A DNA stretch of 64,000 bases, taken from the NCBI GenBank assembly GCA_009889515.1, contig WUQR01000068.1:1-64000 (forward strand), read 5' to 3'. Below, one piece after another: positions 4,513 to 50,990 of this stretch (position 1 is the stretch's first letter; each line of letters starts with the position of its first letter). Under the pieces are notes generated by a model. The model was not told the origin of the DNA. It searched no databases and saw nothing but the letters and a program-made list of their open reading frames with translations. The position numbers and the translations under genes were made by a program. The stretch is from Nitrososphaerota archaeon (GTDB lineage Archaea; Thermoproteota; Nitrososphaeria_A; Caldarchaeales; Calditenuaceae).

Positions 4513-5357
4513 ATGGATGTTATTATAAGCGCTCCTCCAGCCAAGACATTAGTAATAAGAGCGTCTCTTGGTTCAGGAATTAGATATCGATTAAGACTAG
4601 AGTATGTTCCACCACCCACCATCAAGCAGCCAACAGAGAAGCCAAAGGTAATAAGCGTTGAAGTGTCAGAGAAGTCGGTGGAGGCCGAGGTTTGGGGTGA
4701 AAGCCATGAGAAATTGTCTCGGAATGGTAAATATAGAATACGTCCGCTCCAGATATGCTTGGGAAAAGCCCTCAGAAGAGGGCCGCCAAAACCAATTCCG
4801 AAAAAAGGTAGGAAGCTTGAAGTGAGTGCACGATCAAAGACACTCTATCAGCTTTTACAAAAACCTATAGACATTGAGAGGCTAGGACGGTTCATAGAGC
4901 ACTGCGAGGACTGCAAGAGGAGTTTTCTGAGAGGATTCTTCGATAGCGAGGGTTCTGTGAATAAGGGAAATGGGGTAATTACTTGCTTTAATACAAATAC
5001 TAGGCTTCTCAAATATGTCCAGAGACTTCTCCGGTTCTAGGTATCAGAACAACCGGACCGCAACTCATGAAGAAGAAAGGGACAACCTCTACAATATTTG
5101 GGAGAATATTCATAAGTAAAAAGAATGTATACTACATCACAATAATGGTGAGAGACGTACTAAAATTCTATCAACTGGTCTGGTTCACTATAAGGCGAAA
5201 GCAACAACTCCTCGAGGAATATCTCAGGAGACGCGGGCTACTAAAGGAGAAGCCGCCTAACCAATTCTCACCCAATTATTTCTCCCCTAAAATCTCAACA
5301 CACTCATCACATATAAAACTCTCCCCCAGCCTGGCGGGGGCTCGAGAATCATCCTAA
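4513..5357 (+). pseudogene. frameshifted LAGLIDADG homing endonuclease relic
   Basis: From about 4700 onward the translation parallels the intact endonuclease at 31676-32764: RGPPKP, SKTLYQLLQKP, the second LAGLIDADG motif FLRGFFDSEGSV, then after a one-base frameshift near 5033 the tail with LGIRTTGP and FTIRRKQQ. The first LAGLIDADG motif region is missing or scrambled, and the first 60 or so residues do not resemble the intact copy. Nucleotide identity is very high around the second motif, which points to a fairly recent duplication. It lies between the CRISPR leader and mptA, whose 3' end it touches. Probably non-functional. Confidence 0.85.
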
Positions 5358-17004: not shown

Positions 17005-19815
17005 ATGTCGGAGGAGCTTGGAGGGTTCGGTTCGCTCGAGGAGGCGCTGAGGAGCAACCCACACCTCGCCGAGTATCTCGAGACGCTTGAGGGCGAGCAG
17101 CCGGTCTACGCAGTACAGCTTACGAGGGAGATGCGATACATGACGCCCGTCAACGTCCTCTACCCGATAGGCGACCCCTACTTCGTCCACATCTACTCAG
17201 ACCCAGCCGGCGTCTGGAACAACTACAGGGTAGTAATGCCCGAGATACCGCCGGGCGCTTGGAGCAGCCTCAAGGCGGTGGAGGAGGCGCTCGCCGTGCG
17301 GCTTGCAGAGCGGGACCCTCCCGAGAGCCCCGAGGAGAAGCGGGAGCTCCTCTCGGCCCTGCTGGAGGAGGTGGTGTCTGAGGACCCGTCGATGGGTCGG
17401 GGCGAGTATAGGGAGCTGAGGAGGAGGGGGGCGGTGGTGGGTGTTGTAGCAAGTCCCGAGCTTGCCGTCGCGATAAGGTATGCGGTCATCTCCGAGAAGG
17501 TTGGGCTCGGAGTGCTTGAACCCCTCATCAGAGACCCCTACATCGAGGACGTGAGCTGCAACGGAGTCGGCGCAGTCTACGTTGTCCACAAGGTCTTCGG
17601 CCCCTGCCGGACGAACATATTCTTCGAGGATGAGAAGACTCTAGACCAGTATGTCTACAGGCTCTCCCTCAGGGCGGGCAGGCCTGTGAGCATCAGGTCC
17701 CCTATAACCGACGCGGTCCTGCCCGACGGCTCCAGAGTCAACATAGTCTACGGCAGCGACATCAGCAGGAGGGGCACAAACTTCACGATAAGGAAGTTCA
17801 CCGAGAACCCGATCAGCATAACCCAGCTGATAAGGTGGAACATGATAAGCGCGAGGTGCGCCGCCTACCTCTGGCTCCTACTGGAGCACAACCTCAACGT
17901 CTGGTTCGTCGGCGAGACCGCCTCTGGGAAGACAACACTCCTCAGGGCCGCCTCCGTCTTCATAGACCCCTCAGCCAAGATAGTCTCGATCGAGGATGTC
18001 CCGGAGATAGTGGTTCCGCACGAGAACTGGGTGAGCGAGGTGACGCGGCAGGCCCAGGAGGCCGGAGAGGGCGTCGAGCTCTTCGACCTCCTCAAGGCCG
18101 CCCTCAGGCAGAGGCCCAACTACATTCTCGTGGGCGAGATTAGGGGGAGGGAGGCGGCGATAGCCTTCCAAGCCATGCAGTGCGTGGCCGACGCCTACGT
18201 AGCCAGCCCCGGAGGCGTCATCAGCATCCCAGAGCTCTACAGCTCCGCGGCCGCCGGAGTGGGGGCCGCATCGAACGGCGAGGTGAGGCTCAACGACCCC
18301 TTCTACGTATACGCCACCGCTCCGGGTGAGGGGGTCGGGCTCGCAAAATGCGTAGGGGTCAAGAGGATGTGGGCCGCATCAACGGTCAGGGTCGAGACTA
18401 GCGACGGCCTCTCAATAGTCGTCACACCCAACCACAGGTTCATAACGCTGGCAGGCGGTCAGGAGGTGGAGATAGCAGCCGAGGAGCTACTAAACAGGTG
18501 GAGGGCTGGTGAGAGGTCGATAGCCCTGGCCAAGAGGCCGCCCCCCAACCCCTGCATCCCCCTGAGCATCTACTCGGAGAGCCGCAGCCTAGTCCTCAGC
18601 GGTGATTCCTGGTGGGCCCTCGGCAGGCTGGCGGGCGGAGACTTCCTCACCATCACGCCCAGAGGGTTTGAGTGGGTTACTTGGGGGAGGGGCGCGGGCC
18701 TCGAGAGGCTTCGGGCCGCCCTCAGAAGGCTTGGCTGGAGGGGCGGTGAGAGGTGGGCAGAGGTTAGGGGGAGACGAGCAACCATCCTAGAGAACATCGA
18801 CCACAGGCTCGTCCACTGGGCCCTGATGCAGGGCCACCTCTACCGGCAGGGCGAGGCGCTGCTGGGCACGGACAGGGCGGTCGAGCCGGCCTACAGGGCC
18901 CACTACCTGAGCGGAGCCTACTCGGCCATCCGCGACGCCGAGCCCCTCCTCGAGGAAGGCGCAGGCATCTGGGCAAACGGGCTGAGCCCGCCGCGGACCA
19001 AGAAGCCTACACCGCCGGAGGAGCTGGACCCACAGCCGGACTGGGAGCCCCCAACCACTAGGTTCGAACTCCACTACGTGAAGACTGAGCCTTGGACGGC
19101 CTACAGGGCAGGCTGCCTAGCCTGGGTCCTGGGCTGCAGCACCGCCGTCCACAAGGCACATGGCACCGCCTACCTCTACCACCATCCATCAGCCGAGGCG
19201 TGGATCACCTCTGTTGAGCCGGCCGGAGGAGCCGCTGTCTACGACCTAGTCTTGGAGGGGGGTGGCTACTACATGGGGGGCCTCGGCCCGGCTCACCCGA
19301 TACAGGATACGGGGCATGGCGTGCTCTCCACGTTCCACGCGGGGAGTGTCCAGAAGCTGGTCCAGAGGCTGACTGGAGACCCCATAAACATTCCCAGGAC
19401 ATTCGTCGACAACCTCAACTGCATCGTCATCCTCAGCGCGGTCAGACACCCTGTCACGGGGAAGCTTGAGAGGAGGGTGCTGAGCGTCAACGAGCTCCTA
19501 GGCCTAGACCCGGAGACCGGGGGCGTCAACTATGTCGAAGTCTTCACCTGGAACCCCGTCGACGACTCCTTCGAGTTCAGGGGCGAGGGGACCAGCTACC
19601 TCCTCGAGGAGAAGATAGCGAAGATGAGGGGTATACCGAGGCACAGGCTCAGAGAGGTATACGAGGAGCTGAGGAGGAGGGCGGGCTTCCTCCAGAGGCT
19701 GGCCGACGCAGGGGTCCTGGACTACAAGCAGGTCTACAGGGCCGTGGCGGCTGCCTACAACCTCGGCCTGGAGGAGGCTGAGAGGGTTGCTCTCGAAGGT
19801 GCTGGGGAGGCCTAG
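17005..19815 (+). CDS. arlI: archaellum motor ATPase ArlI (FlaI) with in-frame intein
   Basis: A 936-residue precursor of the secretion ATPase superfamily that powers archaellum assembly and rotation. The extein part is about 560 residues: N-terminal domain, Walker A GETASGKTT (about 303-311), Walker B region YILVGEIRGREAA, and His box FHAGSV. An intein interrupts it after FQAMQ (residue 392), and the sequence resumes with TGHGVLSTFH (from residue 769), the uninterrupted family sequence. It overlaps arlJ by 29 nt. Splicing should restore a normal-length ATPase. Confidence 0.93.
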   Translation: MSEELGGFGSLEEALRSNPHLAEYLETLEGEQPVYAVQLTREMRYMTPVNVLYPIGDPYFVHIYSDPAGVWNNYRVVMPEIPPGAWSSLKAVEEALAVRLAERDPPESPEEKRELLSALLEEVVSEDPSMGRGEYRELRRRGAVVGVVASPELAVAIRYAVISEKVGLGVLEPLIRDPYIEDVSCNGVGAVYVVHKVFGPCRTNIFFEDEKTLDQYVYRLSLRAGRPVSIRSPITDAVLPDGSRVNIVYGSDISRRGTNFTIRKFTENPISITQLIRWNMISARCAAYLWLLLEHNLNVWFVGETASGKTTLLRAASVFIDPSAKIVSIEDVPEIVVPHENWVSEVTRQAQEAGEGVELFDLLKAALRQRPNYILVGEIRGREAAIAFQAMQCVADAYVASPGGVISIPELYSSAAAGVGAASNGEVRLNDPFYVYATAPGEGVGLAKCVGVKRMWAASTVRVETSDGLSIVVTPNHRFITLAGGQEVEIAAEELLNRWRAGERSIALAKRPPPNPCIPLSIYSESRSLVLSGDSWWALGRLAGGDFLTITPRGFEWVTWGRGAGLERLRAALRRLGWRGGERWAEVRGRRATILENIDHRLVHWALMQGHLYRQGEALLGTDRAVEPAYRAHYLSGAYSAIRDAEPLLEEGAGIWANGLSPPRTKKPTPPEELDPQPDWEPPTTRFELHYVKTEPWTAYRAGCLAWVLGCSTAVHKAHGTAYLYHHPSAEAWITSVEPAGGAAVYDLVLEGGGYYMGGLGPAHPIQDTGHGVLSTFHAGSVQKLVQRLTGDPINIPRTFVDNLNCIVILSAVRHPVTGKLERRVLSVNELLGLDPETGGVNYVEVFTWNPVDDSFEFRGEGTSYLLEEKIAKMRGIPRHRLREVYEELRRRAGFLQRLADAGVLDYKQVYRAVAAAYNLGLEEAERVALEGAGEA
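18181..19308 (+). other. intein in arlI, degenerate endonuclease domain
   Basis: 376 residues inserted in frame. It begins with Cys (CVADAYVASPGG), has a block-B-like VVTPNHRFI with the conserved His, and ends with a block F/G VYDLVLEGGGYYMGG...PIQD before Thr+1. The end is unusual: Gln-Asp instead of His-Asn. The middle holds LAGLIDADG-like but decayed helices (ALGRLAGGDFL and HYLSGAYSAIRDAE), so homing activity is doubtful. Boundaries rest on the extein FQAMQ/TGHG matching uninterrupted family members from memory. Confidence 0.88.
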
Positions 19816-31430: not shown

Positions 31431-31675
31431 CCCGATAGGAGGTCCCCTATCTCCGCCGGAGGGGTGTGCTCTCCGGCGGGAGGGGGTGTTATTCCTCCTG
31501 TCGGGGAGTCCCGTCTTTCTGGCGGCCTGGGCCTCCCGGGAAGGCCATGTCTCAGGACATGGCTTTTAGGGTTCCCCAGCACCTTGGGGGTGGGTTGGTG
31601 GCTGGGGATAATAGGGAGCAATATGCTCCCTCCACAAACCCCACGGCCCCTCCTGGTCCCGGGAGGAAGGCCGCC
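31431..31675. other. hairpin-rich leader of the homing endonuclease gene
   Basis: This stretch carries at least four stem-loops: CGCCGGA/TCCGGCG (about 31454-31478), GCCATGTC/GACATGGC (about 31542-31563), CCCCAGC/GCTGGGG (about 31574-31608) and GGGAGCA/TGCTCCC (about 31613-31630). Frames are open across it, but codon use is poor, so I treat it as an untranslated structured leader. A small structured RNA or mobile-intron-like ends are alternatives. Confidence 0.45.
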
Positions 31676-32764
31676 ATGGATGGGACGGGGGAGGATAGGA
31701 TGGAGAAGACTAGGCGAAGACTAACACCGGAGAAGAGGGCTAGACTCTTAGATGCGTTGAGGAGGGGTGTGGAGAAGGGGTACGGCTACGTTGATGTTTG
31801 GAGGGAGCTGAAGAAAAGCGGGATAGATGTTTCTAGGAAAGCCGTTGAGTACTGGTATTACAAGTGTTTTCCAGAGAGGGTTAGAAGAAGGGGAGAATAC
31901 CTCCCAAGAGAACTGAGAATAAGATTGTATGAAGAAGTCAGAGAGCTGAGAAGAAAAGGCCTAGGATACCGGAGAATAAGGAAGAATATCAAAGAACTTT
32001 ACGGAGTTACGCTGAACAATGCTGTAATTAGTCATTGGTGTCGTGGAATTCACACACCATACAACGGTGCAAGGATACCCACAATAGACCATCTAGAACC
32101 ATCCCCAGAGCTCGCCTATGTTATAGGTGTGGTTGCCGGTGATGGGTGGGTGGTAAAAATAAGCACAAGGAGTGGAGGATATAGGATTGGTGTCAAGGCG
32201 AAGGACAGAGAGTTCATTGAGGAGTTCGCGAGATGCTTGGGGAAAGTCCTCGGAAGAGAGCCGCCGAAGCCAATAACTGTAGAGGGTGGGAAGCTTGAAG
32301 TACGCGTCCAATCGAAGACACTATATCAGCTTTTACAGAAACCCTTTGACATTGGGATGATAAGACCACTCGCAGAATACTCCGAAGACTGTATACGAAG
32401 TTTTCTGAGAGGATTCTTCGATAGTGAGGGTTCTGTGGATAAAAATAAGGGAGAGATTTGTTGCTATAATACTGATATCAGGCTTCTCGAATACGTCCAG
32501 AAACTACTAAGGGCTCTAGGCATTGAGACAACGGGGCCGAGAATCAAAGCGAGAAAGGGGTCAATCTATAAAATATGCTATAAAATATGGGAGAGAACAA
32601 CTGTGAAGAGAAAGGACGTATATTGCATTGAAGTCAGGGCAAAGGATAGACTAAAATTCTATAGACTGGTAGGGTTCACTATAAAGCGAAAGCAACAAAA
32701 CCTAGAAGAACACCTTAAGAAACGCGGACTTCTGGTGACAAGCCACCAACCAACCCTCCCCTAA
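31676..32764 (+). CDS. LAGLIDADG homing endonuclease with N-terminal HTH
   Basis: About 362 residues from ATG 31676. N-terminal helical DNA-binding repeats (RARLLDALRRGVEKGYGYVD and YEEVRELRRKGLGYRRIRKN) precede a two-motif LAGLIDADG core: first motif LAYVIGVVAGDGWV, second FLRGFFDSEGSV, both with the catalytic acidic residue. It cuts long asymmetric DNA sites and promotes its own spread. It stands free, not inside a gene, between a tRNA fragment and tRNA-Pro. A decayed copy lies at 4513-5357. Confidence 0.88.
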   Translation: MDGTGEDRMEKTRRRLTPEKRARLLDALRRGVEKGYGYVDVWRELKKSGIDVSRKAVEYWYYKCFPERVRRRGEYLPRELRIRLYEEVRELRRKGLGYRRIRKNIKELYGVTLNNAVISHWCRGIHTPYNGARIPTIDHLEPSPELAYVIGVVAGDGWVVKISTRSGGYRIGVKAKDREFIEEFARCLGKVLGREPPKPITVEGGKLEVRVQSKTLYQLLQKPFDIGMIRPLAEYSEDCIRSFLRGFFDSEGSVDKNKGEICCYNTDIRLLEYVQKLLRALGIETTGPRIKARKGSIYKICYKIWERTTVKRKDVYCIEVRAKDRLKFYRLVGFTIKRKQQNLEEHLKKRGLLVTSHQPTLP

Positions 32765-32813: not shown

Positions 32814-32922
32814 TGGGGCCGGTGGGATTTGAACCCACGACCTCCTTCCCCAACTTGGGGGTGAAGCCCCAAGTTGACCGGGCCCGAGCCGGGCATCTTA
32901 GACCATGCTCGACCACGGCCCC
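32814..32922 (-). tRNA. tRNA-Pro(CGG) with probable 33-nt intron outside the anticodon loop
   Basis: Acceptor GGGGCCG (32922-32916) pairs with CGGCCCC; the T-arm is GTGGG TTCAAAT CCCAC. The anticodon loop is CTCGGGC, giving CGG (32886-32884) with G37, typical of tRNA-Pro; stem CCCGG/CCGGT has four clear pairs. Between the stem and the variable loop AGGTC lie 33 extra nt (32844-32876) forming a 10-bp hairpin CAACTTGGGG/CCCCAAGTTG. Removing them leaves 76 nt, so I read them as a noncanonical intron at the anticodon stem/variable loop junction. Confidence 0.8.
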
Positions 32923-38860: not shown

Positions 38861-38967
38861 TGGGGCCGGTGGGACTTGAACCCACGGCTTCCGGGTTTCT
38901 TCTGTGCCAGCTACGCTTGTTGATGGGATCTGGAGCCCGGCGCCCTACCTTGCTAGGCCACGGCCCC
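38861..38967 (-). tRNA. tRNA-Trp(CCA) with 33-nt canonical intron
   Basis: Acceptor GGGGCCG pairs with CGGCCCC plus discriminator A; D-arm GCCT/GGGC; anticodon stem CCGGG/CCCGG with loop CTCCAGA, giving anticodon CCA. The T-arm is GTGGG TTCAAGT CCCAC. An intron of about 33 nt (38897-38929) interrupts the loop after position 37, the usual archaeal site. The mature tRNA would be 74 nt. Confidence 0.95.
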
Positions 38968-48212: not shown

Positions 48213-48773
48213 TTAATTAATCTCTTCTCGAGGGTCTTCCTTCTTTCTCAGTTTTCCGAGCCTGCTTGGCTTTATGGTGATTTTTGCGTCTGGGTAGATT
48301 ATGGTTAGTTCCTTTCCTTGGTGTATCCGGTCTAGGGCTATTGCGAGGGCGGCTATCTCGCTGTGTGGCTGGTTAGTGACTGCGACGTTGATGTCTGCGA
48401 GCTCGTAGACCTCGATGGGCACCTTGGAGGAGCCGACAACCAGTACGATGCCCCGAGTGGCGTAGGCCTCTCGAAGCTCCTCTTCCACATCCTGGATGCC
48501 GATTCCGTACATTGTGAGGTGGGCTATGTATTCGCCCTGAGCCTTCCTCTCTGCTAGGAATTTTCTCCAGTCTGGTGTGTAGCTGGCCTTGAAGCCTCCT
48601 CCCCACCTCTCGACGACCTTGGATATGCTCTCTAGGAGTGCGGGGTCATGTTCTCCGGCGAATACTACCTCGTCAGCCCCCAGTGCCCTTGCTGTGAGGG
48701 CGACATGGCTCGAGACCCTCTGGTCCCTCACAATTCTATGACCCAGCCTTAGGACTGTTATCCTCCGGGCCAA
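48213..48773 (-). CDS. trm56: tRNA (cytidine-56-2'-O)-methyltransferase aTrm56
   Basis: A 186-residue archaeal SPOUT methyltransferase. TVLRLGHRIVRDQRVSSHVALTARALGAD is the family start, LTMYGIGIQDVE and IVLVVGSSKVP form the knot, and VTNQPHSEIAALAI the SAM site. It methylates C56 in the T-loop of tRNAs. The TTG start lies 4 nt after the tfe stop, so the two genes form an operon. Confidence 0.95.
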   Translation of the reverse strand: MARRITVLRLGHRIVRDQRVSSHVALTARALGADEVVFAGEHDPALLESISKVVERWGGGFKASYTPDWRKFLAERKAQGEYIAHLTMYGIGIQDVEEELREAYATRGIVLVVGSSKVPIEVYELADINVAVTNQPHSEIAALAIALDRIHQGKELTIIYPDAKITIKPSRLGKLRKKEDPREEIN

Positions 48774-48777
48774 CCCG

Positions 48778-49284
48778 TCACTCTAGGAGCTTGTTTATCT
48801 CTGCCAGCGTATCGTCGACTGCTTTGAGGAGTTTGGAGTGGTCGTAGACCATTAATTTGCCTCCGCAGCTTGGGCATTTGAAGAATTTGTCGAGGGCCTC
48901 GTCGAAGGTGTATTTTCTGCATCCTTCGCTTCCGCACCAGTAGAGCTGGTTGGACTCGTAGTGTTTCTTCAGAATCTGGAGCCTCTCTGCAATCCTCTTT
49001 AACTGTGTTTTTACAACCCCTTGGACCTGCTCCTGCTGAAGCCTCCAGCGGAAGACCCTCTTGTTCAACTCCTTGTCAACTACTATGTCGTAGGCGACGA
49101 GTGAGAACTCGCTGAGCTGGTGTAGGAGCTTTCTAACCCTCTTCACGTCCATCTGCAGCGCTGCTGCAAGCTCATCCTCCCTCATCCCAGGCTTCGCCAA
49201 GAGTAGTTTGGCTAGCTCCTCCGCCTCCACACCACCTATAAGCCTGAAGACTGATAACAGCCCCTCCGTATCGATGTAAAACAT
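48778..49284 (-). CDS. tfe: transcription initiation factor TFE alpha
   Basis: A 168-residue protein: N-terminal winged helix (about 20-90, PGMREDELAAALQMDVKRVR, RKLLHQLSEFSLV) and C-terminal zinc ribbon with CGSEGCR and CPSCGGKLM. It stabilises the open promoter complex with TBP and TFB. Minus-strand TATA (GATATAATTC) at about 49316-49325. Divergent from the ABC protein gene. Confidence 0.95.
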   Translation of the reverse strand: MFYIDTEGLLSVFRLIGGVEAEELAKLLLAKPGMREDELAAALQMDVKRVRKLLHQLSEFSLVAYDIVVDKELNKRVFRWRLQQEQVQGVVKTQLKRIAERLQILKKHYESNQLYWCGSEGCRKYTFDEALDKFFKCPSCGGKLMVYDHSKLLKAVDDTLAEINKLLE

Positions 49285-49368
49285 TCGATGCCTCCTGTAT
49301 ACAGAAGGCGACGGCCTGAATTATATCTATCTCTGACAACCTAATCAAGGTTAGGTGTTGTAGGGGAG

Positions 49369-50307
49369 TTGGCTGGTATATTGGCGGCGGAGGCGAGGAG
49401 TGTGCGATACTCTGTGGGCGGGGCGGAGATTCTCGTCGATGTAAGCCTAATGGTGTTTAAGGGTGAGGTTACGGCGCTTCTCGGGGGCTCGGAGGGTGAG
49501 GCGCTGCTGGGCCTATGGGCTGGGATTTGGCAGCCTGTAGGCGGAGGTGTCATGGCTCTGGGCCTCGACCCGTACCGAGCGGTGGGAGAAGTTGCCCGGC
49601 GGATAGGCTATCTGCCCCCCGAGCCTTGGCTGCCGCCGGAGCTGAAGCCTGAGGTAGTAGCTGGGCTCGTTGGAAGGGGTCGTGGATTGGTTCCCCGCGA
49701 GGCTGTGGAGCGTCTGAGGAATCTTCTCAAGCGTCTGGGGAAGGAGGGTGTGATGGGGCGTAGGATTGGGCGGCTCACTGCAGAGGAGAGGCAGGCCGTG
49801 GCGGTGGCCCTAACTATGCTCCACGACCCTGAACTACTGCTCCTCTCAAACCCGTTGAGGATGCTGGGGCCCCTTGCGAGGCTTGAACTCGCATCACTTT
49901 TGAGGGAGTATGTAGAGCCGGGGCGGGCTGCTGTCTTGACTGTGGATTCTGTGGAGGAGGCTGGCTTCGCGGATAGGCTTGTTGTCTTCCGGGAGGGGAG
50001 GATAGCTGCTGCCGGGCCTCTTGACGAGCTCTCCAAGACGATAGGCGCTGAGAACTACCTGGTTATCCAAGCCATAAACACTCAGCGGGCCGTTGACTAT
50101 CTTGGGAAGATGCCTCAGGTTAAGAGGTTCTCCGTCGCTAGGGACGGCTCGATAAAGGTGTGGCTGCGAGAGTTTGAATCCGACCTGCCCCTGGTACTAG
50201 ACCTCCTGCTTTCACTAGGGCTGGGCGTGAAGCTAGTTGATGTGAGGAGGGTTGAGTATCACGTTGCCCTCCTCAACTATCTCCGGAGGGGGGCTGGAGG
50301 TAGGTGA
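49369..50307 (+). CDS. ABC transporter ATPase-like protein with degenerate catalytic motifs
   Basis: A 312-residue protein with the ABC domain layout (Y-loop strand, Q-loop region, signature, H-loop), but every key site is altered: Walker A reads LLGGSEGEALLGLWAG instead of GxxGxGKST, the signature reads LTAEE in place of LSGGQ, Walker B ends LLLLSNP in place of LLLDEP, and the H-loop has VDSVEEAGFADR in place of a His. The frame is intact and well conserved in shape, so it looks maintained. The membrane partner follows with a 4-nt overlap. Confidence 0.82.
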   Translation: MAGILAAEARSVRYSVGGAEILVDVSLMVFKGEVTALLGGSEGEALLGLWAGIWQPVGGGVMALGLDPYRAVGEVARRIGYLPPEPWLPPELKPEVVAGLVGRGRGLVPREAVERLRNLLKRLGKEGVMGRRIGRLTAEERQAVAVALTMLHDPELLLLSNPLRMLGPLARLELASLLREYVEPGRAAVLTVDSVEEAGFADRLVVFREGRIAAAGPLDELSKTIGAENYLVIQAINTQRAVDYLGKMPQVKRFSVARDGSIKVWLREFESDLPLVLDLLLSLGLGVKLVDVRRVEYHVALLNYLRRGAGGR

Positions 50308-50990
50308 GCCGGCATCTATTATTAGAGCTTAGACTTCTCCTCGCCTCACCACTCAGAATATCTGTGCCCCTAATCGCCCCGCTGGCACCGCTCCTACTCA
50401 GATATGCGGGGCTGCTGGGCCTAGACCTTGTCGAGCCCCTATTCCTCCTGATGTACCAGTTTCTGGCGATGGCTTATCTTCCATGGATGTTGGGGCTGCT
50501 CAGGGGAGGTTGGAGGCTGGTCTGGCTGCTGGGGCCGCCGGGCTCCGCCTTATCCCTCACCCCTTCATACTTGGGGTTCTTCGCACTGACATCAGCCCTG
50601 CCGCTGGCGCCCTACAGGCTCCTACACCATCTACCCGCCTCCACACCGTTTGATAGCCTTGCAGCATCGCTAACCATCTTCACACTATCAGTAGGAATGC
50701 TTCACCAGTCCCTCGCAGCACTGCTCCTCTCTAGGTCGCGAGACATGACAATTGGATGGGCGGCCGTTCTCACATACCAGTCCCTACTCATAGTCCTCGC
50801 CGCATCCCTACTCTCCCAGGGCTGGTCTGACGCCTACGCCGCCGCGGCGTTCCTCTTCCCAGTCCTCCTAGCCGTGAAGCCCCAAGCCTCCTTAGAGATA
50901 CTCCTCATAGCCGCGGGCCTCTGCCTAATCTTCTCAATAATCTTCACGTACTTGACTGTTCGCGGAGCTGTGAGGCCGGCCCCGTCTTGA
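50304..50990 (+). CDS. membrane protein partner of the degenerate ABC protein
   Basis: A 228-residue protein with about six membrane segments (around 18-35, 45-65, 70-90, 110-135, 145-170 and 190-220), like an ABC-2 type or CcmB-like permease of short length. GTG 50304 overlaps the upstream stop (GTGA), so the pair is co-translated. No substrate clue. Confidence 0.75.
   Translation: MSRHLLLELRLLLASPLRISVPLIAPLAPLLLRYAGLLGLDLVEPLFLLMYQFLAMAYLPWMLGLLRGGWRLVWLLGPPGSALSLTPSYLGFFALTSALPLAPYRLLHHLPASTPFDSLAASLTIFTLSVGMLHQSLAALLLSRSRDMTIGWAAVLTYQSLLIVLAASLLSQGWSDAYAAAAFLFPVLLAVKPQASLEILLIAAGLCLIFSIIFTYLTVRGAVRPAPS

Follow-up and report, generated by a model that had tools for sequence, protein, structure and literature searches.

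A motif-dead ABC domain retained beside a six-helix membrane protein in Calditenuaceae archaea

An ABC NBD in which all catalytic motifs are lost adjoins the TFE gene in eight of 12 genomes of the family Calditenuaceae (Caldarchaeales), representing three of its four genera. The copy described here lies in the window, that is, the whole 64,000-nucleotide stretch of contig WUQR01000068.1 that was analysed (Table 1), and by its sequence the gene product is an ABC-2/DrrA-like NBD with a C-terminal ferredoxin-like domain. The explanation that I favour, with moderate confidence, is a lineage-specific pseudo-ABC pair, in which the motif-dead NBD has been kept, folded but non-hydrolytic, to cap a six-helix membrane protein from the cytoplasm. 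I advance more tentatively, as something that may well not hold, the broader claim that a whole ABC transporter has become an ATP-independent membrane complex with both copies of its motor dead, serving as a regulated gate, receptor or scaffold across the family. As far as sequence can tell, the pair is probably a scaffold or regulator in this family of hot-spring archaea, and not a pump.

Table 1. Features of the locus, in window coordinates
Feature	Position	Strand	Remarks
Pseudo-ATPase: ABC NBD that retains no catalytic motif, followed by C-terminal domain	49369..50307	+	312 aa, TTG start
Membrane partner, six-helix	50304..50990	+	228 aa, GTG start
Stop/start overlap of pseudo-NBD and membrane genes (GTGA, 4 nt)	50304..50307	+
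Former Walker A/P-loop, residues 39-45, GGSEGEA, shortened, without Lys	49483..49503	+	alignment
Former signature motif, residues 136-142, LTAEERQ	49774..49794	+	alignment
Former Walker B, residues 156-163, LLLLSNPL	49834..49857	+	alignment
Former H-loop, residues 189-194, VLTVDS	49933..49950	+	alignment
Ferredoxin-like C-terminal domain, residues 225-297	50041..50259	+	pLDDT 82-90 at 231-290; VIA-align rows span 225-297
RGGW motif of membrane protein, candidate docking loop	50502..50513	+	GGW invariant in 7/7 aligned members
AT-rich, TATA-like element	49319..49332	.	84-bp TFE/ABC intergenic region; conserved in six same-genus genomes
Trm56	48213-48773	-
TFE alpha	48778-49284	-	divergent to ABC gene
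Succinyl-CoA-ligase-like gene	from 51016 or 51046	+	3' of membrane gene

Loss of the catalytic motifs

By its curated cut-off, Pfam places the window protein in PF00005 (ABC_tran, 30.1 bits against a cut-off of 25, spanning profile positions 3-135 of 137), as it does the orthologues from G007 (33.2 bits) and G008 (38.2 bits), which belong to two further genera of the family. In a search of its own genome (G000), the window protein was, at 32.2 bits, the weakest whole-domain match among 55 PF00005 matches, and its best NCBIfam match, drrA, scored 72.1 bits against a cut-off of 312.

Compared with an active paralogue of the same genome, Walker A (GPNGAGKTT) has become the shorter GGSEGEA with its lysine gone, the Q-loop Q/E is P, the signature reads LTAEERQ, Walker B LDEP is LSNP, the D-loop LD is LG, and the H-loop TTH is TVD. 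The window protein thus has none of the features of a functional ABC ATPase (Walker A GK[ST], Walker B Asp-Glu, signature, H-loop His), and a scan of its full 312-aa sequence found no GK[ST] elsewhere. A sequence-only reading of this locus had listed the Walker A lysine, the signature, the Walker B acid pair and the H-loop histidine as replaced; each of these replacements is confirmed, with the Q-loop and D-loop lost besides.

An alignment of 61 sequences, the eight orthologues and 53 comparison NBDs from the G000 genome and its relatives, extends this to the family. All eight orthologues lack the Walker A Lys, the Walker B Asp, the D-loop Asp and the H-loop His, and all have a shortened P-loop, while GK[ST] is found in 53/53 comparison NBDs, which, read by eye, also have the Walker B DE in 52/53 and the H-loop His in 49/53. 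Because the losses are common to every orthologue and every comparison NBD keeps GK[ST], the loss of motifs is not a matter of chance; the check that the sequence-only reading had named, whether homologues have the same substitutions, finds the Walker A lysine lost in 8/8. In place of an LSGGQ-type signature the orthologues have LTAEE, LSAEE, LSAEG, LSSED, LPAED, LSESE or LSEGE. The least altered is that of G008, which alone among the eight retains a Walker B Glu (LVLIEEP) and one signature Gly (LSEGE).

Distribution and selection

Among the carriers are a Candidatus Calditenuaceae archaeon, archaeon HR02 (HRbin02), a Thermoproteota MAG and an uncultured archaeon. A search with the single window sequence recovered orthologues from the other five genomes of its genus (g1), at 93, 85, 78, 77 and 65% identity, and at 29% and 28% identity in G007 (132.9 bits) and G008 (115.3 bits), the next match scoring 90.4 bits. 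This search is the independent check on a pseudo-NBD profile that was built with the eight orthologues, and is therefore circular for them, and that returned the same eight at 439-532 bits both from 44 genomes of the order and from 398 genomes drawn evenly from the phylum. The next-best profile matches reached 125 and 150 bits in the order and phylum sets, respectively, and the seven such loci that were read all have Walker A and Walker B intact.

All eight orthologues lie divergently beside TFE. I read 30 TFE neighbourhoods from the 56 genomes with a TFE match, and the other 22, six of which had shortened flanks, have no ABC gene beside TFE, including all four of genus g2. The AT-rich element in the intergenic region could serve either the TFE gene or the ABC gene.

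In the phylogeny, the dead orthologues form one clade with a support of 100, and their sister group, also with a support of 100 but less certain than this value suggests because of long branches, consists of active NBDs, including one from the window's own genome (L117, G000:C139:73489-74262). The most likely history is a single loss of ATP binding and hydrolysis before the three Calditenuaceae genera diverged; the residues that replace the motifs differ between genera, so an independent later loss is conceivable.

Reading frames are open in all eight orthologues and none is frameshifted. In the six genomes of genus g1, the dN/dS of the pseudo-NBD is 0.09-0.19 in 15/15 pairs, far below 1 and close to the 0.07-0.12 that the active L117 NBD gives over 15 pairs from these genomes, and thus does not fit decay; TFE gives 0.03-0.10, and the membrane partner 0.17-0.32 in the 13 of 15 pairs for which a value is defined (two are undefined). 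The dead protein is constrained about as tightly as an active NBD, with neither the relaxed selection nor the broken frames of a pseudogene. What has shifted is the place of the constraint, conservation now being comparatively low in the old catalytic columns: invariant columns of the dead family number 3/7 in Walker A, 2/7 in the signature and 6/8 in Walker B, with 2/4 and 4/6 in the remaining motifs, against 9/9 in Walker A, 7/7 in the signature, and 7/8, 4/4 and 6/6 in an active control. Walker B is fairly conserved within the genus as LLLLxxPL (the 6/8 columns above), and this suggests that the region retains some structural role. The C-terminal domain, in which a DG..WL..F pattern is invariant, has a lower dN than the NBD in 15/15 pairs and a lower dN/dS in 11/14 defined pairs; its enrichment in invariant columns (50/81 against 98/222) is within chance, being reached by 52 of 303 circular shifts.

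The sequence-only reading had proposed that selection maintains a non-hydrolytic role, and the loss common to three genera, the intact frames and the dN/dS of 0.09-0.19 all agree with it. It had also described frame and fold as intact. The frame is open throughout; for the fold, the near-full-length profile match and the purifying selection speak in favour, but the NBD core is of low confidence in the AlphaFold model.

The C-terminal domain and the membrane partner

AlphaFold, given a five-row alignment, modelled the pseudo-NBD at a mean pLDDT of 48.8 overall, and part of the C-terminal domain, residues 231-290, confidently. Residues 230-293 are modelled as beta-alpha-beta-beta-alpha-beta, so that in the prediction the NBD is followed by four strands and two helices, as in type V/ABC-2 exporters. 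Type V exporters carry such a module as a regulatory domain (PMC11466899). In VIA-align the first rows for the C-terminal domain are HMA domains (Z 9.0, rmsd 2.3, 67 aligned), a likeness that reflects a general and common small alpha/beta fold and implies no function. None of the best 50 VIA-align rows for this domain is a NosF or ABCA chain, nor is DrrA1-3_C among the Pfam matches of the window protein. For the whole chain, the best Foldseek matches include TM_1403, NosF and ABCA-type NBDs, all of them weak (TM-score about 0.26), low scores that follow from the poor modelling of the NBD core.

A hydropathy count gives the membrane partner six hydrophobic segments, and with the 4-nt gene overlap this upholds the coupling to a six-helix membrane protein that was read from the DNA at the outset. 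An NTGA stop/start overlap is present in 7/7 pairs and, read by eye, is in frame in 6/7, the start in G003 being out of frame with the remainder of the membrane gene. A profile of the membrane partner, also run on the 44 genomes of the order, matched in seven of the 398 phylum genomes, and all seven carry the pseudo-NBD. In G007 the partner is 231 aa long with six segments, is followed by the same ligase gene and has in common with the membrane protein of the window an RGGWR loop; against the genus-g1 membrane family it gave an hhalign E of 0.0011, and against the genus profile 11.3 bits, compared with at most 3.3 in 300 shuffles and 5.5 for 28 other membrane proteins. On this profile match and the synteny, I accept that the G007 protein is related to the genus-g1 family. 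The pairing is not universal, since G008 has the pseudo-NBD with no membrane partner at the locus, where a convergent gene is next, and the profile matches nothing elsewhere in that 88%-complete genome. The partnerless G008 gene (L053, G008:C6:33343-34275) overlaps the convergent gene by 18 bases at its 3' end.

Pfam finds ABC2 in none of the seven members (0/7), and AlphaFold models the membrane protein poorly (mean pLDDT 48.4). A comparison with the L115 permease family of this order, an ABC-2 family, gave an hhalign P of 0.038 over 52 columns, and one with the L114 permease is uninformative, the alignment consisting only of fragments of 45-73 residues. A two-copy architecture or a fusion with a known permease was considered and set aside, as Pfam returned nothing and hhalign no more than the L115 value. 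From its context, the membrane protein is likely of ABC-2 ancestry. In HRbin02 (G002) the 3' end of the membrane gene is present twice more, at G002:C18:22689-22904 (L054, L110), with 98% identity over 228 bp, and at G002:C6:44492-44677 (L055, L111), with 72% over 296 bp; both copies end about 17-20 bp past the stop codon, and ORFs near them give, from their translations, the impression of transposases.

In the pseudo-ABC pair as I envisage it, an ABC-2-type NBD subunit with a ferredoxin-like module of the regulatory-domain type would have lost ATP binding and hydrolysis, and the former NBD would now serve in protein-protein contact, probably seated on the membrane protein. Docking may occur through the RGGW loop, much as an NBD sits on a coupling helix, and the C-terminal domain might dimerise, sense a ligand or gate. 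On this view the pair would not be an ATP-driven pump but a passive gate, a receptor or a regulator. That the membrane protein evolves faster than the cap, and that one genome has the cap but no partner, may point to an additional role for the cap.

Alternative explanations and known systems

Completing the active site of a partner NBD needs an intact signature. In an ABC dimer each ATP site is made of the Walker A/B of one NBD and the signature of the other, and degenerate NBDs are common in heterodimeric exporters (PMC7756269). This invites the alternative, also raised by the sequence-only reading, that the pseudo-NBD is the dead half of such an exporter, with the active NBD, and perhaps a second membrane subunit, encoded elsewhere; the G000 genome has many intact ABC-2-type NBDs, and the active type that is sister to the dead clade is present in it. 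However, the degenerate NBD of a heterodimeric exporter has a signature able to complete the site of its partner, and the window protein has not: with both Walker and signature motifs gone, a pseudo-NBD homodimer would be left with no ATP site, pairing with an active NBD would yield no complete site, and the pseudo-NBD could not be expected to complete the site of an active partner.

The search for that partner points the same way. There is no active NBD in the operon, and inspection of 20 G000 regions showed no orphan DrrA-like NBD; the NBDs outside these regions have ORF lengths that give the impression of sugar, peptide or ribose importers. Intact NBDs do exist, but of three candidate active systems traced through the 44 genomes, which are incomplete MAGs, none is present in all eight carriers. 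L114, the best match in the window's own genome, is part of an intact ABC pair on a 4.4-kb contig (G000:C81:1-4422); elsewhere in the genus, relatives of its membrane subunit do not exceed 32% identity. The L115 membrane subunit is missing from G005 and G007, and that of L117 from G007 and G008. I therefore regard a heterodimer with an active ATPase as unlikely. Contamination or recent transfer is possible for the L114 contig.

Also quite unlikely is a nucleotide sensor, in which the pseudo-NBD would bind nucleotide or another ligand in a non-canonical way. Some pseudoenzymes do keep or relocate ligand-binding residues (PMC10211241), and an A-loop-like Tyr14 is kept in some members. However, G005 has Cys and G007 has Leu in place of this Tyr, 8/8 orthologues have a shortened phosphate-binding loop without its Lys, and no alternative GK[ST] is available. 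I give little credence to the view that function lies with the membrane protein, as an ordinary channel or carrier unrelated to ABC systems, and that the pseudo-NBD is only its chaperone or stabiliser; the lack of an ABC-2 Pfam match for the membrane protein would suit this, but the membrane protein is under weaker constraint than the pseudo-NBD (dN/dS 0.17-0.32 against 0.09-0.19), and G008 retains the pseudo-NBD without the membrane gene. Finally, decay toward a pseudogene, to which the many motif changes, the partner lost in G008 and the absence of the locus from genus g2 could be put down, is effectively ruled out by selection and open frames (8/8, with dN/dS far below 1) and sits badly with the maintained gene overlap, so that the refutation named by the sequence-only reading, intact homologues with frameshifts here, came out against decay.

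The NBDs of NosF, TM_1403, ABCA1/4/7 and DrrA are working ATPases. These ABC-2/type V NBDs with a regulatory domain have the same domain order as the window protein, NBD plus C-terminal module (module as described in PMC11466899), and the likeness is seen also by Foldseek, PDB sequence matches and NCBIfam drrA; the window protein differs in that every motif is lost and in having a short membrane partner that matches no Pfam family. In TM287/288, TmrAB and ABCG5/G8, catalytic residues of the degenerate NBD are likewise replaced and the replacements conserved among orthologues, but there an active NBD stands alongside and one ATP site is complete (PMC7756269), whereas here the sole NBD of the operon is dead in Walker and signature motifs. 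The second NBD of B. subtilis RbsA and NupO also misses the Walker A lysine, and that of NupO the Walker B Asp and Glu too, but each is fused to another NBD in one importer chain (PMC11466899), whereas the pseudo-NBD is free-standing with its own membrane gene. L117, which with its relatives falls in the sister group of the dead clade, is unlike the pseudo-NBD in being 258 aa long with intact motifs and in having a 507-aa membrane protein as its pair. Single dead NBDs beside active ones are well known, and the fused NBDs of RbsA and NupO that miss the Walker A lysine have been described; a search of the open-licence literature turned up no description of the present family, nor of an operon in which the sole NBD is completely dead.

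If the pseudo-ABC pair is as proposed, then an ABC motor is reusable without its fuel, as a free-standing NBD kept by selection in three genera, and nature would have separated the structural role of the NBD from its catalytic one. The proposal makes a testable claim, namely that the pseudo-NBD binds no nucleotide yet forms a stable complex with the membrane protein.

Elsewhere in the window, at 17005-19815, 31466-32764 and 4513-5040, the translations of several ORFs give the impression of an intein-bearing secretion-type ATPase and of homing-endonuclease-like proteins, and these ORFs appear to have peptide stretches in common. Two tRNA matches, at 32814-32922 and 38861-38967, are 107-109 bases long, which is longer than usual and suggests introns.
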